From NCBI GenBank assembly GCA_916048095.2, contig OU696571.1:11030449-11094448 (forward strand): a stretch of DNA of 64,000 nucleotides. The letters run 5' to 3'. The DNA is from Sacculina carcini. Taxonomy: Eukaryota > Arthropoda > Thecostraca > Sacculinidae. Made by a program: the position numbers and the translations under genes. Shown one piece after another: positions 3,454 to 54,700 of the stretch. The first letter of the stretch is position 1. Every line of letters begins with the position of its first letter. Below the pieces are notes generated by a model. It was not told the origin of the DNA. It saw nothing but the letters and a program-made list of their open reading frames with translations, and ran no database searches.

Positions 3454-4045
3454 AAAACCTTCACCATTGAACAGCTTGTCTCTCAAAATACGACAAGCGT
3501 AGGCACGTATGCGATTCCATGCAGTATACTTTTCACTTATGTATGTGTGTTGTAATTGTATAGGCCAAAAATGGTTTAGGATCTAATGCAATTGACCAAA
3601 TGAATCACCCTTGGTAAGGACTCCGTGGTGTAGTGGTAGCACACCCGCCTCACAAGCGGGAGGTCCGTGGTTCAAAACCCGGCGGAGCAGAATTTCATTG
3701 GGCGAATTCTATAATCCCACAGCCCCTGTCCACCCAGCAGAAAATGGTACCAGATATCAGTCATGAGTTGTGACATGCATTCTGGGGAGGTGGCCCTCTC
3801 TAATACGTATTTCGTCCTTGCGACGCCATAGCGTGGAGAGGGTCGGTTCTTCGGTGGCAGCGAGCTGCACGGGGCACGCCTGTGTCTTCGTAAGCTTCGG
3901 CTTCTTCCCGTGTAGCAGCTGTAACTTACACCTTTAACCCTTGAACACTAATGCATTGTTCTTGAACACTAAGGCTCGAACACCTTTGACCCTTGAACAC
4001 TAAGGCTGTCATCTCCACGAGCCTTGACACAAATATACGCCCTTG
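3454..4045 (+). repeat. repeat family F, split by a SINE
   Basis: The left part (3454-3608) and right part (about 3971-4045) match successive parts of the repeat at 44376-44700, which also occurs inverted at 33880-34200. Shared landmarks are a GACAAG run, TTGTAATT...GGC, AATGCAATTGACCAA and a terminal GACACAAATATA run. The SINE at 3612-3970 interrupts this copy. I do not recognise the family. Confidence 0.65.
3612..3970 (+). mobile_element. SINE copy 2 with tRNA-Val-like head
   Basis: The first 75 bp fold as a tRNA: acceptor arm CTCCG/CGGAG, box A TGGTGTAGTGG, anticodon arm CCCGC-CTCACAA-GCGGG (anticodon CAC, valine-like) and box B GGTTCAAAACC. A body of about 280 bp is shared with copies at 2643, 37346 and 39078. 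It ends in a repeated CCTTTAACCCTTGAACAC-type tail. The shared body shows it is a SINE, not a tRNA gene. It interrupts repeat family F. Confidence 0.85.
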
Positions 4046-9659: not shown

Positions 9660-12600
9660 TGTGAAACAGATGTCAGAATAGCTATGAGCAAGACAGACAA
9701 AATTGAACAGGCGTATATACAAGAAAAAAAACACGAAACAATTCAACAGGGGGAGGCAGACTCGAGAAGATGTGCATGAAGAGCAGAAGAGAAGGAATAA
9801 GTGAAGGTGATGACCGGATACGAGAAGGAAAGGAGTTGTAGAGACGAGGAGCAAAGAAGTAGAAAGATTTCGTCGACCATGGCGACTCAAAAACTGCTGG
9901 GGGACAGTGAAGAGAGTGAAGACGACGACCTGAGTGTTGAAGTTGAGATAGTAAAGAGCAGAGGTAAAAAAGAGAGGAGGGTGAGCGGATAATTTTAAAG
10001 ATAATACAGCACAGTTTATAGTTAATCCCAGCCTGAACTGGAAGCCAGACAAGTTTACGTAAGTAGGCAGAAGTTGGAGTGCGCGGAGGAAGACGGAAGA
10101 CAAAGCGACATGACTGATTCAATAACCTTTGTAGGGAGCGAAGATATTTAGATCGTGAAGAAACAAAGACTTACAATAGTCTAGACGATGGAAAATTAAG
10201 GATTGGTTGAGAGTAATGGTCGAGTTAGTGCCAATGTATGCACGGATGGGATAGAGTTGTCTGAGAATGAGCCTGTATGATCGCGATATATGCGCAAAAT
10301 TGTTAGCGAATGACAGAGAGGGATCGAAGTAGACCCCAAGATTACGAACACAAGCTGATAGGGAGACAGAATGAGACGGAGGAGATATTAATGGAGGGTG
10401 GAAGACCATGTATAATTTTAGAATGTTTAGAATGGTTGTAGAATGGTTGATGATGAGTTGGCGGGATGATACCCAGGATGTGATGTCACAAGAGAACTTT
10501 GAGAGCAGATTATGAGACAATTTTTAAAACGGAATGTATGGCTGCAGATCATAAGCGTACATATGGCATGAAATGAGGAATTTACGTAAAATAAGGCAGA
10601 GAGAAGAGAATAGAGCCCTGAGGCACACCACTAAAAAGCAAAAGAGGAGAAGAAAAGAAAGAGTTAGAACGCACAGAAAAAGAACGGCCAGAAAAAATGA
10701 AGTCTTGAGTGAGAGAGCATAAGAGAATAAGCCAACATAAGCGAGGACTTTGAGCAATATAGGGTGGTTTACAAGATCGAAGACGGAGGAAAGATCAAGT
10801 AAGACGAGGAGTACTGAATCACCAGATGCAAAGGATTGGAAGGTATCATTTAATAGGCAAAGTAAAACAGATTCGGTAAAATGATGTGAGACGAAACCGG
10901 ACTGGAATGTGTCGAAAATATGATTTAACACAGGAGAGAGTTGTTCGTGAATAGCTGACTCAAGGAGCTTGGAAGGAAGACTTAAGAGCGATATAGGACG
11001 ATAATTATTAGGACAGTGAGGACCGAGAGAAAGTTTTTTAGAATAGGGTTAACTATAGCATGTTTTTCGGCAAAGAAGGATCCATGGAGGAAAAAAGAGT
11101 TGATCAGATGACAGAACACTGGAGCTCAGAGATGTACATAATCCGAGAGAGCCGAAAAGTATTTGGATCAAGGGGACAACGGGACATTTTCAGCTTAGAA
11201 ATTAGGCGAGAGGTATGATAAATATTGATATGCGAAAAACTCGAGATGGTTTAAACTAGACTTAGTATGAATCAGAGGCATACTAGGCATAGGACGTTGA
11301 GATCGGACAGAGTTTAATTTATCAGGAAAAAATTTGGCGAAGACGGAAGCAGGTATGGGCCAAGATGAGGTACGTCCGGCAATTCAGGATCTTAGGATTG
11401 ACCACAGATACCTAGGAACACGGGAATTGGAAAACAAACGAGAGCGGTAGAAGTTGGCTTTTTGATAGCAAAGAGTAGAGAGAAACGAACGACGAGATAA
11501 ACAAACGTTAGACCAGTCGGAAGGTAGATGAGTGAGACGCCAGCGGCGTTTAAAGCGACGAGATGCTGCCCTAAGAGACGACTCTCTCATCTAATAACTC
11601 AGACGAGAACCAGCGAGGGGTATGATTTGCAGAGCGGACATGATGAGTAAATTAGCGGAAATAATTCGTTATTGATGGTCAAAAGAGCAGATGATAAGAA
11701 TTCACATAGAAACCTCGGATGATAAGAAGAAGATATATAAGAACTTGGCGTTAGATGAGTGTATAGCAAGGAGTAAAACGTAGCAGGGCTGAAAGACTTG
11801 AAATCTCTAGCAGAGAACGTGTGATAACACTGTTTAGCAACAACACAACAACACCGAATATTGAATGTGATGAGGGAATGGTCCGACAGAGCCGAATCGG
11901 GTGGAAACGTGAAGGGATCAGACAAAGAAAAGGAGGACATAGCTGAAGGGTAGATAAACAAGTCGAGAGTGTGGCCGGATGTATGCGTAGAAGTAGAGTT
12001 CAATATAGACAAATCATGGGAAGCAAGAAAGGAGAGAAAATAAAAAGCAAGCGGATTTGAAGATGGATCGTCGATCTAAAAGTTAAAATCACCGAGTATA
12101 GCAAAAGTTGTAGGAAAAGTATTGTGAAAAACAAAGAACAAGAGAATCAAAGTCGTCAAAAAACATAGAAGATGTACCAGAATGTTTATGACGGTAGATT
12201 ATTAGTATGCCAAATTTAGGCAATGCAGGGATTGATAGAGAAACAGCAAGGAATTAAAAGGCCTGGGAAGAGAATTTAATTTCATAGCAGAAAGAAAAAG
12301 AGTACATGGATTATCACAACACCGCCAACGATAGTTTTCGCACACCCCGAAGAAGAATGCCAAGCATAAAGAAAGCGGTAAGTAGGAGGCAGCAGGGAAT
12401 AAAAGGGCAGTCACGTCAGAGTCCATGAGCCAGGATTCAGTCAGGCAGAAAAATGAGAAATTCTGAGAAAGGAGTAATTCGGAGATAAAGGTGGACTTAT
12501 TGCGAGCGGAGCGGATATTGAGTAGACCGAATGGTAGAATATGAAGATAACGTTTATTTGGTGATTTTGTGGTACGGGAGACAGCAGGAAGAGGTACAGA

Positions 12601-12815
12601 CATAGACAAGGAGCTTAGAACAACGCAAGGAGGAACAAATGAGACAACGGGTGAAGATAGTCATTTAGTATTGAACCAGGAATCCGAGAGTATTGTCGGA
12701 GGCGTGGCACTTTGAGGGGAGGTGACAGGAAGAGAGTAATGTTGTGTCCGAGTACGCAGCGAGTGCCGAACAGCCAGAAAAGACGGACAATTAGAGGAGA
12801 AAGAAGAGTGATCGC
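9660..12815 (-). mobile_element. L2/CR1-type LINE, decayed copy 1
   Basis: On the minus strand, broken frames follow the order of a non-LTR retrotransposon ORF2. From 12609 there is an endonuclease start (GLLNIRSARNK, then a TESWL motif). The endonuclease end (SDHSLITFN) is near 11880. The RT region is around 10524-10931, followed by the RT/thumb end (RNLGVYFDP, 10119-10520) and the C-terminal segment (LVWLPVQAGINYK) near 10050. It aligns along its length with the better preserved copy at 54276-57890. The catalytic Tyr-Ala-Asp-Asp box reads Tyr-Ala-Tyr-Asp here and there are many frameshifts, so it is dead. Confidence 0.9.
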
Positions 12816-13417: not shown

Positions 13418-13894
13418 GCTCGTTATCTGGGGTATGTCACGTGGAGGCTGTCAAAAGTTTCCTATTTGTCTGGTGGTCAGAATCATATAGCTGCCACATA
13501 ACAACAATTGCAACTTGCCTAGCTTGTAGATCTTGATATCCGCTTGGACAATGAGCTGCAGCTGAGTGAGCCAAAGATGTCGGTTCAGATTATTACGCCC
13601 GAACAAAAAACAATGCATTTTCTTTACAGAGTCACGGAAAGATGCGCAAATAACTGGACGGTCAACAGTGAAACTGGAGTTTTGCAATGTTTTCAAGCAG
13701 TGTGTACAGTATTTCCGCCTAACTTGAGTCTGTATATATTTCCGCCTAACTGGCAACTCTGAGTCCAGTGTGCCAGTTCTGTTTCTCGGCTAGTGCTTTT
13801 TCTCGGTATGAAGTTGTTTATCATATATAATCCAGTTGAATGTGATCTATAATATGATACATGTAGTACATATGAATATCTAACATCCTATATA

Positions 13895-13900
13895 TATAAA
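13895..13900 (+). promoter_or_regulatory. TATA box of the 5' LTR
   Basis: TATAAA within a TATATATAAATTA run. It lies 32 bp upstream of position 13927, the normal spacing to a start site. The equivalent box in the 3' LTR is 18959-18964, again 32 bp upstream of 18991. This supports an RNA 5' end at or beside the self-complementary segment. The start site is inferred, not observed. Confidence 0.75.
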
Positions 13901-13926
13901 TTAATCGTGATTAGTTTTGTCATACA

Positions 13927-13940
13927 GATATTCGTTGACA
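13927..13940 (+). promoter_or_regulatory. putative RNA 5' end acting as own primer
   Basis: The sequence GATATTCGTTGACA is the exact reverse complement of 13986-13999, the 14 nt directly after the 5' LTR. It is preserved unchanged in the 3' LTR (18991-19004) although bases on both sides have diverged. If transcription starts here, the first 14 nt of the RNA would pair with the primer site, as described for Tf1 and related self-priming retrotransposons. Confidence 0.75.
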
Positions 13941-13985
13941 TTGTTGTGATATACAAGCGATTCGCAAGCACCGAATTTTTCTTCA

Positions 13986-13999
13986 TGTCAACGAATATC
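13986..13999 (+). other. primer-binding site complementary to the LTR itself
   Basis: TGTCAACGAATATC directly abuts the LTR end, where the minus-strand primer site is expected. It lacks the usual TGG start that matches a tRNA CCA end. Its 14-nt complement lies in the LTR at 13927-13940. The gag-pol ATG follows only 15 nt later. Confidence 0.75.
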
Positions 14000-14014
14000 G
14001 CTCTCTAGTCAAAC

Positions 14015-17000
14015 ATGGTGGCTCTCGAATGCAGTGTACCAGCATGCGAGCTTGAAACAACCGACAGCAGCGATGCAGTTGCAATTGCACTGCTGACCAA
14101 CCACAACCTCGCTCACCAGCCCACCACAAATGCGGAAAACAATGCCCCCAGCAGCCTCAAAGGCCCAAAGCTGGAGCGGCCACGCATTCAAATGGGTGTT
14201 GAAGATGAGACGTAGAACGCATTCGTGAGGAGGTGGGAAAATTTTCGCAGGGGATCCGGCATTGATGCGGGCTCTGCAGCAATTCAACTGTTCCAATGCG
14301 CAGATGAAGCCCTTGGAGATGCTCTACTAAAAATGGATCCTGCCATCACCACCCGTTCAGTGAATGATGTCCTAGCCGAAATGCAGACTCTTGCCATTAT
14401 CCCCGTTTCCCGAGGGGTAAAGCGCGCTGAGTTAGTCAGCATGCACCAGGATGGTGATGAAGTTTTCAGGTCTTTTGCGGCCCGAGTCAGAGGGAAAGCA
14501 GAAACTTGCGACTTCCATGTCGTGCATACGTGCAGCTGTGGGCGTGTACATCATATTGACTACACTGACGCAACCATCCGTGATGTGTTACTGGCCGGCA
14601 TAGCTGATACGGAAATCCGACGTGAAGCACTTGGCATAGAAGCCACCCAACTCAAGTCGGCAAATGATGTCATTGGATTTGTTGAATGTCGTGAGATGGC
14701 CAAGAACGCGCTTCCACTAGCAAACCATTCTGCAATCTCATCATTCAAACGTGCGACAAAAAACCTCAAGCAAGAGCGAACAGCGCCGACATGGGCACCT
14801 GCCCCTGCAGAACAGCACAAGAAAGCCACCTGCCCAGTCTGCAGCTGTCAATTCTTGGTGTATGCTCAGACACCACGGGGTTGGAGCCGGAAACCGTACT
14901 CACATTGCAAGGAGTGCTATTTAGCCAGCCGGCGTCGTGGTCGTAATAGAAACAGTCCAACCACCTCTAACTCCGTTACTATTGACTGTGTTGAAATTGC
15001 TCAGGTGACTTCTATGGCATCTTCCCGTACGCAGTACCCACCAGTGTGCAACGCTCAAATGCTATGTCTCCAGCATCACATCTTCACTAACAATGGGTGG
15101 AAGCGTGGGAAATTTGCCAAGCACCCAACAGTACAGGTACGCATCTGGGTTGACTACGCAGCCCCAGGCGCGCGCACCCCACCAGTCCAGCCCCCATCTG
15201 CCAATGTTGAGGCTTTATCTGATAGCGGTGCACAGTCAGACGTCTGGTCATTGAATCAGTTCCTGCAGCATGGTTTCGCCCTAGATTATCTTCGTCCGGT
15301 GACACTCACACTCCAAGCTGCGAACAAGTCTGGCATTTCAATAGAGGGCGCGTTCTTCGGTATCATTGAGGGTCGGGACCCCGAGCGTAAACAAAGGACC
15401 TGTCGGGCCATGATATATGTGAGCCGTGATATACACCGATTTTTCATGTCCCATGACACACTGCTCGCACTGGGAGCACTACCATCCTACTTCCCCACCA
15501 TAGGTGGCGCTGATCCGACTGTGTCATCCCATGCACGACCATCCACGAGTGTAATCAAGGCCGAAAGTTTCGACCGTCAGACGGCTGACGACTCCAACGA
15601 CCGCTGCACATGTCCTCGACGTCAACGCCCGCCGGAACGCCCGACGCGTCTGCCGTTTCCGTGCACGCCAGAGAATAACGGCAAAATGCAAACCTGGCTT
15701 CTAGAACGCTACTCTGCGTCCACGTTCAACACTTGCCCGCATCGCCTACTGCCGACGATGGACGGACCGCCGGTGGAGATTCATGTGGATGAAGATGCCG
15801 TGCCTCGAGCCTGCCATACGGCGGCGCCGATACCGATACACTGGCAGGACCAAGTACACCGAGATCTACTGCGCAACGAAGCCCTCGGCGTTGTCGAACG
15901 CGTCCCTTATGGTGAGTCATCATCTTGGTGCCACAGGATGGTTGTCACTCGCAAACACGATGGCACTCCTCGTCGCACCGTGGACCTGTCACCGCTAAAC
16001 CGCGTTTGCAGGCGAGAGTCCTTTGCCGCCGGATCACCGTTCCACCTTGCGCGCAGAGTACCAGGCCACACATAGAAGACGGTGACCGATGCCTGGAACG
16101 GGTACCACTCGGCATCGTTGCGGGACGCCGATAAACATCTCACCACATTCATTAAACCATTCGGCAGATGGCGCTACTGTCGAGCTCCACAAGGCTTCCT
16201 GACGGTGACGGGTATAATCGCCGCTCTGACGCCATCCTGGCCGACTTCCAACGTAAGGAGCGGTGCGTCGATGACACTATCTTCCATGACGAAGACTTGA
16301 CAGCACATTGGTGGCGCACGATCGACTTCCTGAATACCGACGGCAAGGCAGGAATTGTGCTCAATCCGACGAAGTTCCAGTTCGCTAGACGCGACGTGGA
16401 ATTCGCTGGAATCCGCATCACGAACACCTCCATCGAACCTTTGCCCAAATATATCGAGGCAATCAGCGAGTTTCCGACACCCACCTCCACGACGGACATT
16501 CGGAGTTGGTTCGGGCTGGTCACTCAAGTCAGTAACTACGCTCAACTCAAGGACACCATGGCTCCATTTCGGCCATTCCCAAGTCCGAAACATCACTTCT
16601 TCTGGAACCAGGACTTAGAGGCCGCATTCCAGACGTCGAAAACAGCGATTATCGCAGCTATCAAAGAGGGTGTAAAAATATTCGACATGAAGAAACCGAC
16701 CTGTGTCCGGCCAGACTGGACCGCTCATGGTATCGGGTGCTTCTTGCTGCAGAAGCACTGTCGGTGCAAATCAGACACACCTGATTGCTGCGTTGACGGA
16801 TGGCGTATCGTGCTGGCTGGGTCGCGGTTCCTCTCAAATGCAGAATCGCGGTACGCCCCCATTGAGGGCGAAGCACTAGCGGTCGCGTGGAGTCTTGAAC
16901 AGACTCGATTTTTCACCCAAGGCTGCTCTAATCTCATGGTGGTCACGGACCATAAGCCACTGACGAAAATCTTCGGCGACCGTACCCTAGACGAAATCAC

Positions 17001-18738
17001 CAACACTCGACTGTTTTGTCTGAAACAGCACACCCTGCCCTGGCATTTCCAGATCCGTCACATGCCGGGGAAGACCAACCTGGCAGCGGACGCCACGTCT
17101 CGTAAGCCATCAGCGTCTGTAGAAGTAAGCCAACTGGAAGTCGCCGACCAGACCGAGCACGCCCTCGCAGCCAATATTCGACGCGAGGCATCGGACTTCA
17201 TGGCCATCTCATGGTCTAAGATTGTTGCAGAAACCCAAGCAGACGACTACATGTGCGCCCTAGCGAAGACTATCACGGACGGATTCCCAGACGAAGTCAG
17301 AGATGCCCCCCATGCGGCTCTGTTCTGGGAATATCGCAACGCTCTTTACGTCATGGACGGCGCCATCCTCTACAAAGATCGCGTCGTAGTCCCTCCGTCC
17401 CTCCGACATGCAGTCTTGGCCAACCTCCACGAGGCCCATCAAGGCACGTCCCAGATGGAACTGCGAGCACGCGCCGTGGTTTTCTGGCCAGGCATCACCG
17501 CTGATATCCACGCGGTACGCGCGTCGTGCGGCGATTGCAACCGCAACGCGCCATCACTGCCCCGCTTACCTGCAACAGCTGCCCCGCCACCATCCACGCC
17601 TTTTGAGTCCTTGTGCGCCGATTACTTTGACTACGCCGGACACCACTATTTGGTCATCGGCGATCGTCTATCCGGCTGGTCGGAAGTGTTTGGATGCCCA
17701 ACTGGGTCGTCTCGTGCCGGTGCTGCCGGCCTCGTCCAATGTCTGCGGGCGTGTTTCGCTACGTTTGGGGTGCCGGAGGAACTGTCGAGCGATGGAGGTC
17801 CTGAATTCTCGGCGGCCGCCACGCGGGTCTTCCTGGATAAATGGGGAGTCAGGCATCGCGTCTCATCTGCCTACAATGCGTCTTCAAATGGTCGTGCTGA
17901 AGTGGCAGTGAAGACCACGAAGAGGCTACTGCGGTCCAATGTCGGTCCTACAGGCACGCTCAACAACGACAGTTTCCTCCGCGCCATTTTGCAGCTGCGA
18001 AATACACCTGACCCCGATTGCGACATATCGCCCGCACAAATCGTCTTCGGTAGGCCTCTACGTGATTCTCTTTCGTTTATCAACAAGCTGGAGAAATTTT
18101 CCAATCCCTACATCCGCCCAACCTGGCGTGAAGAGTGGAGTTTGAAGGAGCTGTCGCTGCGCACTCGGTACACTCGGTCACAGGAGGCCCTGAACAGCCA
18201 GAGCCGCCCAGCTCGACCCCTCAAGATAGGTGATCGGTGCTTCATCCAGAACTGCGCAGGCGCTCAGCCCAGACGATGGGACCGCACCGGGATAGTTACA
18301 GAGGTACATGCCTTCGACAAGTACACGGTGAAGGTCGATGGGTCCGGCCGTGTGACGACGCGCAAGCGACGTCACCTCCGCGCCTACACACCGGTGAGCA
18401 CCGGAATCGGTATCCCCGCAGTCCGTCCAACTTGGCACGACCCTCTGCAATCGACACCGACCGACCAGTCACTGCCACCTTCGGCCAGCTCCACATCGCC
18501 GCCGACGCCGCCCTTGGCCAGCTCTGCACCGCCGCCGACGCCGCCCTTGGCCAGCTCTGCACCGCCGCCGACACCACTCCGAGCTGGATCGGCCTTGTCG
18601 CCACCCGCATCCCCACCTACATCTGCTTCGACGCCGACGCAGTCCGACCCGGTACCGTCTTGCATCCGACGCCCGGACCGCCCTCGTCGCACGAATAAGA
18701 AGCCCGCCTGGCAAGAGTCGGGTGATTGGATCATGTGA
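14015..18738 (+). pseudogene. gag-pol polyprotein, single frame with two TAGs and a frameshift
   Basis: The ATG at 14015 has a good context (AAACATGG). Domains in order are: Gag, with a C-x2-C ... H-C-x2-C cluster around 14830-14920 in place of the usual CCHC knuckle; aspartic protease (DSGAQSD, 15217-15240); RT, with its active-site motif Cys-Val-Asp-Asp at about 16264-16275; RNase H (TDHKPL, near 16950); integrase, with H-x3-H/C-x2-C near 17428-17540, then Asp, Asp (SSDGGPEF) and Glu (SNGRAE) near 17620-17900; and a proline-rich tail. Gag and Pol share one frame. It is broken by TAG at 14213-14215, TAG at 16073-16075 inside RT, and a frame change near 16198-16205. The stop codon is 28 bp before the 3' LTR. 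No intact polyprotein can be made from this copy. Confidence 0.93.
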
Positions 18739-18759
18739 AGCAGCCCCTGACACCCGACT

Positions 18760-18766
18760 GGGGGGA
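18760..18766 (+). other. polypurine tract
   Basis: GGGGGGA directly precedes the TGTACAG start of the 3' LTR, the position of the plus-strand primer in LTR retrotransposons. Confidence 0.8.
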
Positions 18767-19049
18767 TGTACAGTATTTCCGCCTAACTTGAGTCTGTATA
18801 TATTTCCGCCTAACTGGCAACTCTGAGTCCGGTGTGCCAGTTCTGTTTCTCGGCTAGTGCTTTTTCTCGCTATGAAGTTGCTTATCATATATAATCCAGT
18901 TGAATGTTATCTAAAATATGATACATGTAGTACATATGAATATATAACATCCTATATATATAAATTAATCGTGATTCGTTTTGCCATACAGATATTCGTT
19001 GACATTGTTGTGATATACAAGCGATTCGCAAGCAACGAGTTTTTCTTCA
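18767..19049 (+). repeat. 3' long terminal repeat
   Basis: 283 bp, the same length as the 5' LTR, with 10 substitutions and no indels between them by eye. It retains the TATA box (18959-18964) and the 14-nt self-complementary segment (18991-19004). Confidence 0.97.
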
Positions 19050-19165
19050 CAGTGTTTCCCAACCCTGGGTCGTGACCCAAAGTTGGGTCGCCAAGCAATG
19101 CTTGTTTGCTGGTTCACCAAGGTTTCGTAAACAATAATTAGCTTGCCACTCAAATATATTATAAT

Positions 19166-22100
19166 TGTTGTAGTGTTAAGTAGGTTAACGATTTGGCATC
19201 ACTGTGTATTTCACGGCAATTGCGTCGACTATTGAGGGTCGGGTTTTTTCTGTGTGTTTGTTTGTACATTATGAAGTTGTAGTGTTGTGCTCTGAAATAT
19301 CATTTTCCCTACGTTATGTCTGGTGTTCTGTATTAGGAACACAACAGAAATGGCCACGAGGATGGGACACATAGCTTTGAGTGGAATTTATGATATTTTA
19401 TATTATTTTGAGGATCTGATGTTTTTATTGTAGTGATCTGGATGTTTTTAGGAATGGTTGGAGGTATTTTTGAGTGAGTGATTGCCAACTACTTTTTAAC
19501 ATTTTGTTCTATATCTTGCATAGAATATAATTATTTTAGCAATGGCAAAAGTTGCCGAATTGCTGAAGTTAATGCAGAAGCAAATGGACAACCAGCAAAA
19601 GCAGATGCTTGAACATCAAGAAGAGATGAGATAATTAGTGCAGGCTTTCACTCAGTGCTCAAATTCAAGTACAACTTCAACCACTCCATCTTTCACTGCC
19701 TTTGATTCAACTTCCAAACTTTGGGCAGATTATTGGGCCAGATTTTGTACTTACTTGGCTGCTAACCAAGTTCCTGAATAGGCAAGCAAAGGCAAGCAAA
19801 GGTGTTTCTAACAAACTTGTCGCCTTTAACATACAAACTGCTATCAAATCTGGTTCCTCAAGAATGTCCTCCAAAAAGGAATAACTCCTAATCTATTGAA
19901 TAGATCACTGATTACATGGCAGATCAATTCGTTCTCAGGCGTTTTGTCATCAGGGAGCGCATTAAATTTTGGAGCGACAATAAGTGCAAGCCTGGAGAGA
20001 CATAACTTGTTGGGGAGTGATGCCATCGCAGCAATGCAAATCTCGGTGGATGAAGTGGTCCATTATCTCAGTCAGAGACGGGACACCGATCTTTCGGTCT
20101 ACAAAGTGCATGAAAATGTTCCAATGAAGCCCCCTCAGAAAACCTGTCATGAGTTATGTGCTGAATACAAGGAACTGTTCAATAACGAGTTTGATTGTCT
20201 GAAGAATGTAGAACTGGAAATCCAATTCAAATCTGATTCCGAACCAGTCTTCTGCAAGACCAGAACGGTTACATTTGCCATGCAAGACGAGCTATCCTAT
20301 GCTTACGAAGCTGTTATCAAGAAGGACATATGATAACCTATTCAGCTCAATGACTATGGTACCCCAGTAGTACCCATTAGAAAGCCGGGTAATACCGAGT
20401 CATCCATCGGGGTATGTGGCGATTACTCCACTACGGTAAATCCGCAGTTGGAACCCCGCAGGCAGCCATTACCGATTGCAGAAGAGCTGATGAGTAAGCT
20501 TCACGGAAGTTTCCGATTTTCGAATATCGACATGTCAGCCAGAGGCGTTTAGCGCTTAGTGCACACAAGGGAGTACTGCTCCAGAAGAGACTACCTTTCG
20601 GTATTAAATCCGTCACCGAATATTTTCAGCGCATTATGGAACAACTTACTGCCGACCTGCCTGAGGTAGTTGTCTTTCTCGACGACATTCTGGTGGGTGG
20701 TGCAGATGAAGCCAGCCATTTGAAGACTCTTGGAGGTCTTCTACTGCGACTCCACGATAGCGGTTTGATATGTGGTCTGAGCAAATGCCGAATCGCAGAA
20801 TCCAACATAGAATACTTGGGCCAAGTGTTGTCGATAGATGGAGTATCGAAAATCCCAAACGTGGATGATTTGATTAAGATACCGTCTCCGTCAGACGTAC
20901 CTAGTCTGAAGTCTTTTCTCAGTTCAGTGACATTTTATGTAAAGCTCCTGAAAAAATTTTCGACGGTTGCCGAACCGCTCTACAACCTTTGCAAGACCGG
21001 ACTTTCCTGGTCTTGGAGGCAAAGCCAACAGAGAGCTTTTGGCCAACTCAAGAGAATGTTGGCCGAAGATGTGTAACTGGCACGTTTCGATCCAAGGATT
21101 CCATCGAGATAACGAGTGACGCTTTGAATGTTGACATTGGTGCAATGCTGTTCCATCGATTCCCTGACGGCAGTGAGCGTCCAATAACCAACGCGTCGAA
21201 GACCCTTACGGATTGCTAGAAGAGGTACAGTCAAGACATCGTGAATATTTGAATACATCGCAATCATTTTTGATTTTCGCAAGTTTTAACAGTATTTGTA
21301 TGGCCGTGAGCTAGTGTTAGTAACGGACCATAAGCCGTTGCTGGCACTGTTTTCGCCGACGTAAGGTACTCTTGTTTTAGCATCAAATCGGTTGGTACGC
21401 TGGGCTCTTGAACTAGGCCAGCACCAGTATAGGATTGAATATCGGAGGACTGCAGATTAGGGGAATGCTGACATTTTGAGCCGACTACCCAGTGGTCGAG
21501 ACACCGTTTCAGACACCGTTTGACCGATACCGATAAAGAAGAAGATGGGAAGGATGTGGATACAGTCTATGCGGTAAATCTGATAAATGATCAGTCTAGG
21601 GAGGTGAATGCATCGTCCATTCAAGCGGAATCTGCCAATGACAAGGTGATAGCGACTGTTATGCGCTTCAGTGGCGAAGGATGGCCAAAGGCTAGGACCG
21701 AAGATAACGACGTCAAGGGTTTTCCAGGTTTAGACGTTGTCGACATCTTTCGTTTGCGTCCACATGTTCTTCAGCTACTTCATTCGGGATATATGGACAT
21801 GGCTCGGATGAAACAACTCGCCGATTAAACAGCTCTCCGGGAGTTCAAGGCCTGGTGCGCGGAGAGAGAGAGATAGTACATCTCACTGGTGCACCGTACC
21901 ATCCCGCCACTAATGGAGCGGCGGAAATGCTTGTGCAGACTTTGAAGCAGTCTATGAAGAAGTCACAGCTGCCAGTGAAGAAGGCTCTGTCGGAATTATT
22001 TTATGCATTATCGTAGGACTCCAACATCTCGCGGGTTTTCACCGAGTGAACTTCTCAAAGGTCGACATTTGCGTACCCAACTGTATACTCCCCTGACATC

Positions 22101-22745
22101 GCCTGATCATGTGACTCAGAGCAATCAGGCAAAGAAGGCAACAAAATCGCAGTTTCGTGAGGACGTTGCCAAGGTGATAGACTTGTATGAGGAAGGTGAC
22201 GCTGTTCGTGCTTTGTACTGCGGACCACAGCGTGACCGCGACCCCCTTTGGGTCCCAGCCATCGTACTGAAGCGTTTGGGTACCCGGAATCTGAACGTGA
22301 GAGTCGTACCACGGGTTCCAGTATGGCGCCGCCATGTAGAGCAACTGCGCTCGAGATACGGAGCGGAGACCGACAACAACCCGGGAGAGGCACCCTGCCA
22401 ATCTCAAGAAGCTGTGCAGGAGCCGGGAATGAGCAAGAGTAATGAGCGAGCAAAAGAGTTCGATTTGCGTCGACCTCGGAGTTCGGACCAGGAAATCCTC
22501 GCCGTTCTAAACGGACTACCAAGCGTAAACACTGTGCGTACTGTTGATGTTTTGTGGAGCTTTACCTAGTGTCTTTATATTTCGCAGAGATGTTGTGGTG
22601 TTCAGGAGCTTCACGATTTGACATCACTGTGTATTTCGCGGCATTTGCGTTGACTATTGATGATCGGTTTTTCTGTTGTTGTTTGTGCATTATTAAGTTG
22701 TAGTGTTGTGTTCTGGTAGAACTATAGTTTCCGTACCATAACAAC
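19166..22745 (+). mobile_element. Mag-type Ty3/gypsy retrotransposon, decayed
   Basis: Two diverged copies of a terminal sequence, 19166-19346 and about 22591-22745, share TTTGRCATCACTGTGTATTT, GTTGACTATTGA-type and GAAGTTGTAGTGTTGTG-type blocks, and I read them as LTRs (TGTTGTRGTG...ACAACA). Between them are fragments of gag, RT, RNase H and integrase of the Mag lineage. The right LTR edge is uncertain because of a repeated ATAGTTTCCGTAC motif beyond it. Confidence 0.8.
19542..22568 (+). pseudogene. Mag-type gag-pol remains
   Basis: A Gag start (MAKVAELLKLMQKQMDNQQK) at 19542 runs into a stop near 19632. A Gag fragment (YWARFCTYLAANQVPE) follows near 19727. A Pol segment at 19896-20333 precedes RT, whose VFLDDIL active site at about 20671 lies in an intact frame 20636-21076. 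RNase H remnants (GSERPITNASKTL, TDHKPL) follow. The integrase core is deleted between about 21835 and 21885, and the integrase C-terminal segment remains at 22003-22568 (MHYRRTPTSRGFSPSELL, then VWRRHVEQLRSRYG). Multiple stops and deletions make it non-functional. Confidence 0.88.
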
Positions 22746-25523: not shown

Positions 25524-28211
25524 CCTTTATTTTACCAATGTTCCCACACGGGAACATTTGTAGACCTCTCTTCAACCAATTTTTGAAATATTTATGCACT
25601 TATTTTCCATATAATATTAATATCAGCGGATGGAGAATTAATCGCTCTTTCGTCTGAACGTAAATATTTTACGTTAAAAAATATTAATTTGCACTAAAAT
25701 AACCTTGTAATAACGTTATTTTCATTTCTCGGAGCCACTTCAATAGTTCTGCTTAAAAACTAAGTAAATACTAATTTATTTTCTTTATCTTCTCACAACA
25801 TATTCACTAGCTTTGAATCGATACATCAAAGAAAATTACAGTAATTCAGATAGTATATTTTGGGTTTCAGAGCAAGTCAAATTTCAATGTTCCCGTGTGG
25901 GAACAAATGGACATTTTCAACAGAAACTTGCTAGGAGCGCTCTCCCTCTTTAACTCTCGTGAACTCGCGCAAGACAGCCTGAATGAGTCCCCTTCCTGAG
26001 TGATGCAATCAATGATAGTTTGGCGTCATCTTTTTGAATGTCCAAGTGATGCTGACAACATCAGCACACTTTAGTTTTGTTCTACTTGTTACAGAGAGAG
26101 GTGTGATACTAGTGTGCTAATCATGGATCCCGAGAACAATTTTGTTACTTTGTCCGAAGCAATGGAAAGTATTGACCATTCGACCGAGACTCAAAACATT
26201 GTGATACTCCCTCCAGACAGTGGTGGTACTGCTATGGATAGCGACGTGGAGGATGCCGACACCATCATGGCGAGTGATGAAGAATTGTTTCAACCAGCCG
26301 GCCGACTGCAGGTTGACGTGGACGATGAGGATGAGAGTGAAGATAATTCACTGGCGGATACAAGGACAAGCCAGCAACCAAAAATCGCCATGGAGAAAAG
26401 CTAGTCGTTTTTTGGCTGATATTGAGAGTGATGAACCGGAAAGCTTGCTTGAGGCACACCCTTATTTGGCTGGATTTTCGCCCGACCAGCTGTGGTAGTG
26501 CATATTTTGTAAATACTTTATGGACTTGATTGTGTGCCAAACCAACACATGTATGCCAGGAGAGATAAGAACAACTCTGATTTTGAGGTGAACCACGACG
26601 AAATCCTAACTTTTATGAGTATTTTACTTATATCTGGCTACCGTGAAGTGCCACATGAACAACATATTAGTCATGCACAACTATTGGTCCACGCAGCCAG
26701 ATTTTGGTGTGAGACTGGTGTCGAACGCAATGTCTCGAAAACGATTCAATAATCTCAAAATAATGTTGCATTTCGCTGATAACAGGCATCTTCCTTCCGG
26801 TGATAAGCTCGCGAAAATTCGCCAGATATATACCAAGTTGAATGAAAATTTAATTAAGCATGGTGTTTTGGGGAGAAAATTCAGTATTGACGAATCCATG
26901 GTGCCATATTATGGACGCCATTCGGCCAAAATGTTCATCAAACACAAGCCAATACAATTTGTTTACAAATTATGGGTACTTTGTGGAAGTGATGGGTATC
27001 CATACCGGCTGAAGCTCTACGCTGGCAAGCAGACATGCCAAAAACAACTCCCCTGCAGCACGATAGTAGTTGACCAAATGGTTGATACGCTTCTTGCTCA
27101 TTCATCGCCTACAAAACACGAGCTGCTTTTGACAACTTTTTCACTTCACGCACCTTGCTGAAGTCACTCCCTGAGAGGAACGTAAAGGCAACTGGCACCA
27201 TACGTGAAGCAAGGTCTGGTGGTGCATCAAAATCTATGCAATACAGTGCAGCCATGAAAAAGCTACCAAGAGGTAGCTTTGACTACCGGTGTAAATGGGT
27301 GCAAATGGCACGATAATTCCATCGTGAGCATCGCCATCAACCACCAGAATCATATGCCTGTGAAGGAGGCGACTCGGCGAGTGAGAGGTGCAAGCTCCAT
27401 AAAAGTGAAGCAACCACACCTCGTCCACACGTACAATGAGGGTATGGGGGTGTTGATCTTATGTACCGTCTCCTGGCAGCATATCGGCCGTCAATAAGAG
27501 GAAAGAAATGGTACTGGCCTCTTTTTTCGAATGCGATCAACGTATCTGTTGTGTCTGCATGACGGTTACATTGTCTTGTGACTGACACACCTCTGTCCCA
27601 TTTGTATTTCAGAAGATAGATAACCCTCTGTTTATTGAAGTCAGTCAGTCATTGTCGTGATCAACGCCACATCTCGACTGATACGCCGCCTGATGTTCGA
27701 CGTGACGGTCGCGATTATTACAAGCGACCGTGTAAGCAAGGAAGATGTGTGGTTTGCAAGAAAAACACCAGATATGAGTGTGATAAATATCAAGTGAGGC
27801 TGCATTATGACGGAAACACCAAGTGCGCGCATAGTTTTCATACGATATAACGTGTTTTGCAGCGACTTTTGTGCATACATTTGTGTATCAGCATTATGTC
27901 AATGAATTTTAATTGTGATATTTAATGAATGTTGATCGGAATACACTTTTATTGTTTTATTGTATTTCTATGGTGAAAATGGCAATGTTTTTCCTATGCC
28001 GAAAAACAAGAGCGAATAACTAGTGCGACGAAATTGACAAGTTTATGTTGTATAAATCCATTTGTTCCCACACGACAACATACCCATATCTTAAAAAGTT
28101 ATGGATGAAATTGCTTGATTTTTGCAGAATACATTTAGCTGACCTATTGCAGCCAATTTACAAGATTTAATGGGAAAATTCCAACTCTAACCATACGTGG
28201 TAAAATAAAGG
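25524..28211 (+). mobile_element. piggyBac transposon, 2688 bp, terminal repeats intact
   Basis: Terminal inverted repeats of 14 bp (CCTTTATTTTACCA at 25524, TGGTAAAATAAAGG at 28198) are bounded on both sides by TTAA (25520-25523 and 28212-28215), the piggyBac target site. A palindrome TGTTCCCACACGGGAACA lies about 15 bp inside the left end and recurs at 25888-25905 (inverted sense), with an imperfect form near 28068. The transposase inside is broken. Confidence 0.92.
26114..27849 (+). pseudogene. piggyBac (PGBD-like) transposase, frameshifted
   Basis: An acidic N-terminal region starts near 26123 (MDPENNFVTLSEAMESIDHS) and is broken near 26400. The core DDE_Tnp_1_7-type domain follows in pieces: ARRDKNNSDFEV near 26550, then a long frame 26643-27161 with YWSTQPDFGVRLVSNAMSR and the first catalytic Asp in SIDESMVPYYGRHS. 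The second Asp (FDNFFTS) appears in another frame near 27130 and the third (CKWHDNS) near 27300. A C-terminal cysteine-rich zinc finger (CKQGRCVVCKKNTRYECDK) lies around 27733-27790. At least four frame changes and a stop make it non-functional, but all three catalytic Asp codons survive. Confidence 0.9.
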
Positions 28212-35000: not shown

Positions 35001-38000
35001 TATCAAGACCAAGGGATATGGCGTGATTAGCTGCAGCCAATGATGAGCAACCAGAGCTTGACATCATAAATCATATGAGTGAGTGAGCCAAACCGCACGT
35101 GTCCCATATCATATGAGAATCCTCAGACAAGGAAAAATCGGTGCAGATAACTTACCCTTATAGCATCTAATACCTTTTTTCCTTGATGAGTTTTTCTACG
35201 CTGACGCACTGGCTTTTCTGCATGGCCCCTCGCTCTTTGGAGTGTCGTTTCTTCAGCGTTTCCAGCTCTTTCTGCTGTTTCTTGTTGGTCTTGACAAAAC
35301 CCTTGTCTTGACGTAATGAATCCGTGGTAACGCGCTCAAATTTGGTTGGATCGTCTGGAAAACGCACCAACAGTATTAGGGAAATGTATTGTTGGCAATT
35401 CAAACTTAATGAAATGGAACTAAATGCAATGTATTTAAATGGGACAAGTGATGCGTTTCGTAATTGCGTCAATGTGATGTCGCAATTAACAATACATACA
35501 ACCAATTTTTCATGGTAGTCAGAACCACTGTGTCTATTATACAATCAGCTGATTATATTTAATTTTGCCTTTTAGTGCCCTCCGATTGAAAATGGCACCG
35601 AATGTGATTTACTCGCTGCGATTCGTTTTCCTGCTGCTATGAGAACAGGGGCATAGCTAGGCCATTTACCGCCCGAGGCGGTGCATTTTTGCCGCTCCCG
35701 CCATGATTGCTTAGCGACTGTGCGTTTTAACAAGACAGTAAGGGAATTAGCAAGTTAGATATAGCTGAAATGACGAACCCCTTATAATAATTCATGCTTC
35801 CAGTCAACTAATCGGATATAATTTTTTTAACCAATCTTGCTTTAATTCAGATATTTGAGATTAAAATAGCAAATATGAAATAGTATATTCAGAGTTTCGA
35901 CTCAGATATAACGATAATTCAACGTCTTCAACAGCTCTTATGCCGGCTCCCGCGTCTACCATGCTACGCCCCTGTATGAGAGTAAAAGCGACTGTAAATC
36001 ATCGTAAGATTAGTATTGAAGTGTCATTACGAGTCATACGGTGGTGTGGAAATGTGTGAAACAGTCATTGAATAAATCAATATTTCACCTTTGCGCGTTT
36101 CATCCTTCTTGAGTGTATCCTGGCGCAGAGAGCGTGGACCGTCATTGGTGGTGATTTCTCTGGTGAGTTGAATGTCAGAATCGTCAATGCCCATGGCCTT
36201 CAGCTGGTCGACCCTCTTCTCCTGACTAGAGAGAAATGCTCGTGGATCCGATAGAGCGTCCATAAGATCTGAAACATTCAGACCACAAATATTTCACCCA
36301 ATATGTCCTTCCGGTCATCACAGAGACTGAAACACAGAGCCGTAGCAACGTCCAAGCACACCAGCTGGGAAGGGGTGAGTGTTTAGGGCCCCGTTCCTCA
36401 TACACGGTATTAAATTTATCATAAAGCGGTGATTAAGTCCACATCATAATTCAGACCGAGGAATGCTCGTAACTGCATTTTCCCTAAGCCGGATCTCTAT
36501 TATAATGGCCTTGTATTTATGATGGGGGCCCCAATTATTACCTTCGGGGGACCCCATAAGAGCACGCAACGGTTATACTGAGACAGAAAACATTTTGATA
36601 AGTAAAAGCCTAAACGTCATCAGAACCGTTGAACTGTACATTTTAAACGCGTGTAAACGCAGTCATAGGATATATGCAATATGCAATAAGATATGCAATA
36701 CGGTATGCAATATATTTTCTCAATGAGTTTTTTCATCTCCAGCGCCATGAATTGGTTGAAATAGATGGGAAAATCATCCTGATAATTATTTCAATTTCAA
36801 CAGCATTTACCCACGCTTCAATGAGACTAAAACCTAGCCTAATTTCATCACAATTGCTGAAGTTGGAAAATTTGGTTGAAGACCACTGGTGTAGGTATAT
36901 AACGGAATGACAATGAAAGAGGTTTCATGGATGAATATATTTGAAAAAGGATTCCAGTCCCTTATAAACTGTCCAGGAAAAACACAAATCAACTTAATTC
37001 ACATTAAAGCTTTGATAGATTTGGTTTACTTAACTTATATACACTGTAATTAATAGAATATAATTTCAGCTTTGATACACCATAATTTCCAAGCAGTGGC
37101 GACTCTAGGATTTTTCCAGTGGGGATGAGAGGGGACTAAGGAAAAATATGCGAGGCGTGGCGAAACACGAGGTACTACTAACGAAGAAGTTCATGGTCAG
37201 GGTTTTTGGTGAGGCTTAGGGGGGACTTGTGGAATGATTTCGGAGGGGTTTCATCCCCTCCGAAATCCCCTTGTCGTCGCCAATGTTTCCCAATGAGTCG
37301 CTTTTAAAAATTCATACTACAATCGAACATAGACCATTTTGGACTCCGTGGTGCAGTTGTTAGCAGACCCGCCTCACAAGCGGGGGTCCGTGGTTCGAAA
37401 CCCGGCGGAGCAGAATTTCATTGGGCGAATTCTAAAATCCCACAGCCCCTGTCCACCCAGCAGAAAATGATGGTACCAGATATCAGTCATGAGTTGTGCC
37501 ATGCATTCTGGGGAAGTGGCCCTCTCTAATACGTCTTACGTCCTTGTGGCGCCATAGCGTGGAGAGGGTTGGTTCTGCGATGGCAGCGAGCTGCACGGGG
37601 CACAACTGTGTGTTCATAAGCTTCTGCTTCTTCCCGTGTGGCAGCTGCCACTTAGGCATTTAACCTTAACCTTTAACAACGCGTTGTGTTTCGTCTGCTC
37701 AACCTACCGCCAAGGCCGTCTGGAACGTAGATCTTCAGATCGAAGCGGCAGAAGAGCATGGGTAATGGCATAGGGAAGTTGGCCTCGGTGCGCAGCGAGA
37801 TGTGCCGATATCCCGCCTGCAGACCGTCCAGCGGCAGAATACGCTGGCCCAACAAGCGGCCGTTCTCGTCAAAAACAGCCACACGCAGCAGAGCCAGGTC
37901 CGGCAGCACTACCTGCAGAAACATAAACTCCCTATACATATCCCCTGTTCAACCCTGAGACAGGGGATACAAATAATGCCGCCGTACCCGCTGCGTGTCG

Positions 38001-51700: not shown

Positions 51701-54700
51701 TATATTTAAAAAATGACACAAATACAGGGTAATTCCTGTTAATCAATCACAAATTGAATCACAAATCACGAATGGAAAACAGTCAGTCATAGCTAGAGAA
51801 TAATTAGTCAAAACGACGTTTAACTGGAGGTGATCGTGAATTTCTTATTCACGATCACGCTGATCGTGATCGTGATCAGATTTATAAGTTTTATAAGTAG
51901 TAAGATTAGTAGTAATACTTATTAAGATTTATAAGTCATGATTATAACAAGTTCATTAGAGGTGTCGTTCTATTTTTAAGCTGTTCCCCTGATGTGCCGT
52001 TATATTGAAGGTACCGTTCAAATAGAGGTCTTAGGGTACAATATATATATATATATATATATAATTAGCTCAATTTATTTGCCAAAGTAATTAATATTCA
52101 AGTATTCATTTGTCTGGCCTAAAAGAAAAATTCATAGACTTTCAATGAGAATACAATACCCGAATACACTAAGATAACTCAATATTACAAATGAGCCTGC
52201 ATGAAATAAAAGACTTTGACAGTCGGCTGGATATGGGATACCGTCACAGTGTGTCACTTCCTATCCTTCCTAGTGATGTAGATGAAGAATAACCGGCATC
52301 AACATCGTGAACATTAGCACCAGAGGCGACGCCAGTATTTTTCCACCAGGGGCTGAATGGAGCCAGAGGAAAAAACTGCGGAGTTTGGCGAAACATGTGA
52401 GGAACTACACACGAAATGTGCATGGTCAGCATTTTTGGGGACTTAGGGGGCTAGGCACATTTTTTCGGGGACTTCGGCTTTTTAGCCCCCCCCCCCTGGC
52501 GCCTCCACTGGCTTTATGCCAGCGATTTGAAGCGACGTAAAAGCTATTTTGTAAGCAAATGACAACTAAACATATTTTACCAGAAAAAAATGTGTTAGTG
52601 TGTTTAGATTCGTTATATTCTGCGTTATATTCTATATCGATTTAAATTTTAGAAAATTTGATTTAACGAATTTCTTTCAGTCCTAACCTAACCTAACTAA
52701 ACCTAACCTAACCTAACCAGCTAGACCTAACCTAACCTGAAATCTATGAAAAATATAGAAACTTTTTAGTGCGTGTTTTTGCCGTTTTAAAAAATTTGCG
52801 TTTTTAATGTTCTTGAATCCTTACACCCTTAGCCTAGACCCTTCCCAAGTGCTTCTAAACGTTCGATTCACACTTGAGGAATACTTCGTAAGTGCTTCTA
52901 ATTGCTTCTGAAGTAAATCAAAAGTTGTTATTTTTTTTAGCTCGGGTAAAATGAAATAAAAACGTTGTGCAGAGGCACCAACCCAGAAGGATTATCGCGC
53001 CAAAGTTGTTATTCATGGCACACAGCAGGCACTCATTTCCTTTGATCATGATTTCCGTTTTATATTTCGTCATTTATTTACATATATTTTATTTCATTAT
53101 TTATTATATTTCATTATTTATTTTATTTCATTATTTATTTTATTTCATTATTTATATTATTTCATTATTTATGTTATTTCATTATGTATTTTATTTCATT
53201 ATTCATTTTATTTCATTATTCATTTCATTTCATTATTTATTTTATTTCATCATTTATTTTATTTCATTATTTATTTTATTTCATTATTTATTTTATTTCA
53301 TTATTTATTTTATTTCATTATCTTTTTTTATTTCAATATTTATTTTATTTCATTGTTTATTTTATTTCATTACTTATTTTATTTCATTATTTATTTTATT
53401 TCATTTTTATTATATTTCATTGTTCATTTTATTTCATTGTTTATTTTATTTCATTGTTTATTTTATTTCATAATTTATTTTATTTCATTAGTTATTTTAT
53501 TTAGTTCATTTTATTTCATTAGTTATTTTATTTAGTTCATTTTATTCAGTTCATTTTATTTCATTAGTTATTTTATTAAGTTCATTTTATTTCATTAGTT
53601 ATTTTATTTAGTTCATTTTATTTAGTTCATTTTATTTCATTATTTATTTTATTTCACTATTTGTTATATTTAACTAAATTAGGATATATCAAGAAAAAAC
53701 GAAATTGCAATAACAAATATTAACACGTGAACATAATAACAAACAACACCGTAAATGACTGATAAACAATAATGAATGTCGCACTTCTGAACCCGTGTTC
53801 GATTCATGCACTTCGGGGGTTCTTACTTCTGAAGTGGTAAATCGAACATATTCAAATGGTCTGTTGTCTCTGTAAGTTGTCATGTCTCTTAGTTGTCGTA
53901 TATTATAGAGGGGGTTGAGTTGGGAAGTTGGTGTGGAATTGGGTAGTTATATGGACGCGTTCATCTTGTTCAGTGGTCGGAAAACCACTGAACCCTACGA
54001 CCCTTCGACGATACTTGAGTTTGCTTGATAAAAAATATGGACCGCTTAGCTTCTTTGATAACTTATAAGTGAATAAACATGCCAGCGATTTTTGCTTTTT
54101 GTTCATTGCACGACACTCAGCCATGATTCTCATGAAATGCCAAACTTGGATTTCTGCATGATTTCACTTAGCAAAAAAAGTTTGCCGACCCCTGATCTTG
54201 TTTGTATGTATGTTGGTCTGTATGTTAGTTATTAGTACTTCATAGTGTAGTAATCTCAGTCGTTCAGTTGACAACAACAACAACAACAACATATATTTAA
54301 TATAGCGCACATATTTATACACAGGCGCGGAAAAGACACAACCGACAAGAACATCACAGCGAGCAGGGAGTAGGCACAAATAGAAAAATGAAAACACGTT
54401 TGGAAACTGGAACATGCTAGATGGCCGTTGGCTATCAGATAGCTCATCCGCCCTTGAAACAGGTTTTGTTTTTTTTCTTGTCGTATGTCTAGCCACCCTC
54501 CTCACTGCAGAACAGTGGGAAGCCGGTTTAGTCGCCGACGACTCGACCATAAATCTGGTTGTACTGGAATTACACGGTTACCAGTAGCAGGGCGAAGCCT
54601 GACCAGACAACGACGAATGCAAGAGATGCAAAAACGGGACGCAGCAACGAAATCATATAATTCACAGTGATTAAAAGACAAATATCAAGCAAGAACAACG

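Follow-up and report, generated by a model that had tools for sequence, protein, structure and literature searches.

Predicted self-priming from the RNA 5' end in a chromodomain-less Ty3/gypsy lineage of animals

How does a Ty3/gypsy element start reverse transcription when the site behind its 5' LTR lacks the TGG of a tRNA-type primer-binding site (PBS)? An element of Sacculina carcini raises this question. It lies in a stretch of 64,000 nucleotides of contig OU696571.1, called here the window, to which all positions refer. The first-pass annotation of this DNA proposed priming by the RNA's own 5' end, of the Tf1 type. From the sequence evidence, we consider it very probable that a lineage of chromodomain-less animal Ty3/gypsy elements primes minus-strand DNA synthesis with its own RNA 5' end, in a Tf1-like way. 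The evidence for the architecture and for the covariation of primer and PBS is strong; the RNA 5' end, its cleavage and the priming step would follow by analogy with Tf1.

The window element and its complementary segments

The window element is a defective Ty3/gypsy copy from a large chromodomain-less animal lineage (Table 1). Like Metaviridae, it presents the order RT-RNase H-integrase, LTRs with TG...CA ends, a 5-bp target-site duplication (TSD) and a polypurine tract (PPT). Its second ORF matches the models of RNase H, the H2C2 zinc finger and integrase, and the best solved match by sequence is Ty3 (7q5b). The broken RT gave no match to RVT_1. Among 27 proteins (the window pol and 26 relatives), RVT_1 is present in 25 and H2C2 in all. 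The Chromo model matched none of the 27 at E values up to 1, which agrees with the annotated lack of a chromodomain. G-rich tracts like the window PPT also precede the 3' LTRs of families B, C, F, H, I, and J, which are described below together with family A, that of the window element.

Table 1. Position of the parts of the window element
Feature	Position	Strand	Remarks
TSD CAGTG	left 13698-13702, right 19050-19054		basis: sequence
5' LTR (TGT...TCA)	13703..13985	+	283 nt; 96% identical to 3' LTR
TATA-like TATATAAATT	13893..13902	+	T13895 is 31 nt before A13926
CAG, 5' edge of primer segment	13925..13927	+	putative RNA start (initiator) or splice-acceptor-like mark
Self-primer segment (predicted) GATATTCGTTGACA	13927..13940	+	exact complement of 13986-13999
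Remaining R/U5	13941..13985	+	weak stem near primer TTGTGA/TCGCAA, p 0.15 alone
Weak poly(A)-signal-like TATACA	13950-13955	+	by eye
PBS (predicted) TGTCAACGAATATC	13986..13999	+	pairing also takes in A13985 with T13941
gag and protease-RT part, broken	14015..16075	+	in-frame stops 14213-14215, 16073-16075
RT end, RNase H, integrase	16156..18738	+	frame differs from preceding part; no chromodomain match
PPT ACTGGGGGGA	18757..18766	+	G-rich
3' LTR	18767..19049	+	283 nt; same primer segment at 18991-19004

The complementarity between the PBS and the LTR, annotated as 14 nt, is exact. It extends to 15 nt with the terminal A of the LTR, and the match is thus flush with the LTR end. As had been described, the primer segment is alike in both LTRs, which differ at 10 positions, two of them close by (13913 A/C and 13920 T/C). 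When up to two mismatches are allowed, the 14-nt motif has three matches in the window (both LTR sites and the PBS). All are exact, and 0.8 are expected at two mismatches. The chance of a flush, exact 14-nt match anywhere in the 283-nt LTR is about 1e-6. At random places of the window, 9-nt matches occur in 0.7%, simple repeats included. Folding the leader RNA, a check proposed with the annotation, gave -24.3 kcal/mol (z -3.9), and the best structure contains the primer:PBS helix. The TATA box TATAAATT starts at 13895, which is the annotated 32 bp upstream of 13927.

No TGG follows the 5' LTR of the window element. The PBS starts with TGTCAACG directly behind the LTR, as expected from the claim that a tRNA site beginning with TGG is lacking. 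The exact 14-mer occurs at 37 places of the genome, and 33 of them are within family copies matching the LTR-leader. At the four places outside these copies, ARAGORN found no tRNA, a check that covers exact matches only.

We searched the assembly (264 Mb, 43 contigs) with the window LTR-leader and obtained 32 matches, which form family A. A COX1 gene was looked for in this assembly and not found; RPB1-like exons were located. The primer segment is covered by 24 of the 32 distinct rows and the PBS by 10 (9 at its last base). Neither of them varies. Elsewhere, the family A LTR does vary, with a mean of 2% minor letters. The invariant run spans about LTR positions 220-250, wider than the primer (225-238), and another invariant 14-nt window is found at 117. 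Row L009, which covers the PBS except for its last base, has T at that position and then departs from the family sequence. Close copies of family A may have lacked time to change, so the invariance within this family is weak evidence by itself.

Primer and PBS in related elements

The pol search in the same genome, in which 53 of the 7718 first-look candidates were scored, gave at least 56 matches. The other families found in this way show 47-66% identity. We compared the two ends in eight copies of these families and then in four further copies. The PBS is specific to each family and matches its own LTR over 13 nt in B, 15 nt in C and 9 nt in I, plus one more with the terminal A in each. The further copies include one of H type and one of J whose PBSs match their own LTRs over 9 nt each, and two of the three J copies could not be delimited. 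Thus, six of the seven families with an LTR pair have a PBS matching their own LTR (A, B, C, H, I, and J), and these PBSs differ. Family F has an LTR pair and no PBS/LTR match. Likewise, no match is present in the first H copy at the LTR edge set in the first pass. Families D, E, and G have no LTR pair within the stretches examined.

A gag search with a tubeworm-associated element as query listed 150 matches. We chose 60 of these loci by hand, with varied scores and places (306-381 nt each). An inverted match of at least 9 nt with a loop of 30-70 nt is present in 50 of the 60 junctions; dinucleotide shuffles give 3.6 of 60. On visual inspection, the match coincides with the LTR/PBS junction in 48 of the 50, including three (L104, L108, and L142) where the pairing fails at the LTR edge. 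The exceptions are L095 and L137. A pair with one or two mismatches was seen by eye in seven loci (L084, L088, L095, L102, L131, L134, and L141). Five junctions have no pair: L087, L122 (PBS alone), L125, L137, and L138. In the last two, distant gag relatives of the same genome, TGGCGCAGTCGGTAG stands behind the apparent LTR end. We take it to be a tRNA-Ser-type PBS and, presumably, a possible tRNA-primed contrast.

Seven junctions found earlier brought the match-bearing ones to 56. Clustering at 80% identity sorts them into 20 groups, of which one is spurious (L137). After one cluster was split by primer and L130 was added, 21 primer types with 21 different 8-nt primers were obtained, 20 from one genome and one from a tubeworm-associated contig. 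Primer and PBS match in 21 of 21 own pairs, which follows from the choice of the set, and in 0 of 420 foreign pairs. In most of the sampled families, the PBS directly adjoins the LTR end and is exactly complementary to a segment of 9-16 nt in the LTR (edge base included); the loop that separates the arms measures 36-68 nt. Whether the two segments stay complementary in relatives had been set beforehand as the test of the proposal. Pairing is kept through many different sequences in most sampled relatives, and this argues strongly, at the level of sequence, for self-priming of the Tf1 type.

Other explanations of the match have to be weighed here. AT-rich DNA often contains short inverted matches, and L095 and L137 show that chance ones occur. 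However, the shuffle and foreign-pair controls rule out chance or a local duplication artefact, to which we give practically no weight. A hairpin of RNA or DNA with another role (packaging, dimerisation or poly(A) control) would agree with the poly(A)-signal-like hexamer that is often seen by eye in the loop. Nevertheless, in six of the seven families with an LTR pair the match reaches exactly to the LTR end, the place required for the end of a primer, and a hairpin that does not serve as primer is very unlikely. It is even harder to believe that a host tRNA, whole or as an internal fragment, primes the synthesis and that the LTR match is secondary. Most surveyed plant LTR elements are tRNA-primed, and some copia elements use half-tRNAs, according to the part of PMC6317226 available to us. 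Against a tRNA stand the missing TGG, the 21 different PBSs that each match their own LTR, and the absence of tRNAs at the four exact 14-mer places outside the elements. Self-priming is the reading that we follow below.

The CAG edge and the 5' end of the RNA

A CAG lies at most 6 nt from the start of the complement in 20 of the 21 types (14% expected by chance) and exactly at the edge in 16 (3.5% by chance). Type C is without CAG at the primer edge. The complement starts with the first base after CAG in 11 of the 20 types and one or two bases earlier in 5, about the extension expected by chance. Types T, L128, L129, and L130 depart from the CAG-edge pattern. The distance between CAG and the match end, counted with the edge base, is 10 nt in ten of the 20 types; six types have 13-14 nt, and the remaining ones 7, 11, 12 or 21 nt. 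The CAG is preceded by a T-rich tract, with a T fraction of 0.58 compared with 0.37 at 83 other YAGs (p 6e-9), in types that are not fully independent. With the same dependence, the AG-free run before CAG has a median of 43.5 nt (20 nt at other YAGs), and its mean in 19 types is 33 nt versus 21 nt in composition-matched shuffles (0 of 2000).

Stems near the primer were scored with the 5' arm at most 3 nt from it. The mean score is 5.6, and the maximum in 500 shuffle sets is 5.3. Taken alone, p 0.05 is reached in 5 of the 21 types. The arms of these stems differ between families, and the inner fold energy of the leaders is ordinary (mean z -0.31). By eye, the loops of L083-L142 often present ATTCGT directly behind the primer. 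About 15-20 nt behind it, many types have a hexamer like AATACA, AATATA or AATAAA, perhaps a poly(A) signal.

In 20 of the 21 types the primer has CAG at its 5' border, and the RNA end is therefore probably determined at this place. On the sequence features, we prefer an initiator at CAG, and a splice acceptor seems less likely. A TATA-like box at -34 to -28 of CAG, present in three types (A, L086, and L107), counts for the initiator. As a general rule, a TATA box at about -31 was discarded, with these 3 of 21 types. The proposed process would be as follows. Transcription would start at CAG, and the primer segment would be the 5' end of the RNA. The RNA would fold back and lay the primer onto the PBS, with a U5-IR-like stem adjoining. 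The RNase H of the element's RT would then cut after the primer, usually between CA and T, and RT would extend the freed 3' end from the last base of the LTR. Finally, the RNA primer would be the template from which the plus strand takes its PBS, and primer and PBS would thereby stay matched during sequence drift. The strict edge at CAG also speaks for the initiator, since it would fit a plus strand copied up to the last base of the RNA primer.

Self-priming could also hold with a 5' end made by splicing, the T-rich tract and CAG then acting as a 3' splice acceptor to which a trans-spliced leader or an exon from upstream is joined. The primer would be the first piece of the following exon. The frequency of CAG, the T fraction, the AG-free run longer than at other YAGs or in shuffles, and the edge of the complement at CAG all agree with this, and a branch-point-like motif is present in 14 of 20 types at about twice the density found farther upstream. 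However, AG depletion is not clearly above GA depletion (Fisher p 0.13), a comparison that weakens AG exclusion as a proof of splicing. No donor common to the LTRs was found to pair with the acceptor-like CAG; a strong single candidate exists in 3 of 20 types (L086, L110, and L114). Moreover, C at -3 is stricter than in usual splice acceptors. Plus-strand copying would continue into an added exon, and the uniform 10 nt from CAG to the match end in ten of 20 types fits a 5' end at CAG. We therefore regard a spliced 5' end as possible but doubtful. The special case of a trans-splice acceptor directly before the primer, where the host splicing machinery both caps the element RNA and defines the primer, seems to us rather improbable. 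If it were true, self-priming would render the added leader harmless because it would be cut away together with the primer. For the preferred initiator as for the acceptor, the CAG edge makes the setting of the RNA end directly testable.

Distribution of the lineage and known self-primed elements

In the bacterial genome collection, we found one relative (L021), on a 5.2-kb contig in the metagenome-assembled genome (MAG) of the symbiont of Escarpia laminata, G001. It is 45% identical in pol and has the same layout, with a 16-nt primer/PBS match of another sequence. We inferred its LTR ends because the contig carries one LTR. Escarpia is an annelid, and the contig is probably tubeworm DNA. Several contigs of G001 encode Ty3/gypsy-like proteins (17 matches), and thus this bacterial MAG seems to hold host DNA. 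Among 210 genomes of the same order, strong matches are found in G001 only, and three others show weak ones (E 4e-10 to 8e-4). Three scans of viral contigs gave no confirmed relative. Relatives are also listed under Mytilus edulis and Actinostola sp. A tree of 23 RNase H-integrase pieces places the families predicted to be self-primed in three branches (A/B/C; H/I; tubeworm/Mytilus). Self-priming is probably an old trait of the lineage.

Within the parts of the sources available to us, self-priming is given for Tf1/sushi, Tj1 and several fungal elements and predicted for the plant Tcn1 and TAR lineages (PMC6934838, PMC2864245, PMC3601003, PMC5445492, PMC6317226, PMC4600332, PMC5006619, PMC3315495). 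The PBS of Tf1, Tf2 and Tj1 of fission yeasts is complementary to the 5' end of their own mRNA and not to a tRNA, as stated in the available part of PMC4600332. The window element resembles them, Tf1 being compared by description, in a PBS that pairs with the expected 5' end of its own RNA. In contrast to them, no chromodomain was found, the primer stands at a T-rich tract with CAG, the hosts are animals, and the match includes the last A of the LTR. We take the element to work like Tf1; from the Chromo result, we do not claim membership in Tf1/sushi. The putative leader stem near the primer would be comparable to the U5-IR stem of Tf1, and the title of a paper cited in PMC4600332 indicates that Tf1 needs a U5-IR-like RNA stem-loop. 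A further cited title has as its subject a primer that is not removed.

The other comparisons rest likewise on partial texts. Self-priming of Tcn1-clade chromoviruses and of plant TAR is also predicted from sequence (PMC6317226). These are other lineages, TAR being Ty1/copia and Tcn1 having a chromodomain. An earlier study of a Tcn1 element from Selaginella reports, in its available part, that no evidence of self-priming was found (PMC2864245). Cer1 of C. elegans, also a Ty3/gypsy element of an animal, has a splice acceptor close to the 5' end. However, Cer1 has a PBS that fits tRNA-Pro, and trans-splicing does not take place at that acceptor in its 8-kb RNA (PMC3315495). Most Skipper elements of dictyostelids are without a TGG-type PBS. 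Nevertheless, Skipper is a chromovirus, and its left LTR is described as lacking a complementary region (PMC5006619).

The first-pass annotation had suggested an independent or unreported case. A single case it is not, since self-priming appears as a property of the lineage. As to the second part, in the openly licensed literature, represented partly by titles and the beginnings of abstracts, we recognized no report of self-priming in a chromodomain-less animal Ty3/gypsy lineage. If the prediction is true, the mechanism must either be ancient or have had more than one origin. It would also explain the missing PBS in searches of such elements for tRNA-type sites. With about twenty matched primer/PBS pairs, the lineage offers natural covariation data in which primer, cleavage site and stem can be studied.

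Other repeats and genes accompany the element in the window. Right behind it, a second and degraded Ty3/gypsy-like element occupies 19166-22686, with pol-like ORFs at 19830-22569 (by eye). Its repeat of 96-129 nt, at 19166 and 22591, is 82-86% identical. On the minus strand, the ORFs at 10524-12660 and 54763-57711 resemble what we take to be proteins of non-LTR retrotransposons (LINE), and the ORF at 26619-27161 presumably resembles a piggyBac-type transposase. Two tRNA-Val (CAC) genes or tRNA-derived repeats are found at 3619-3690 and 37342-37413 (Rfam 50 and 32 bits). Finally, a long low-complexity T-rich stretch with several open frames covers 52955-53535.
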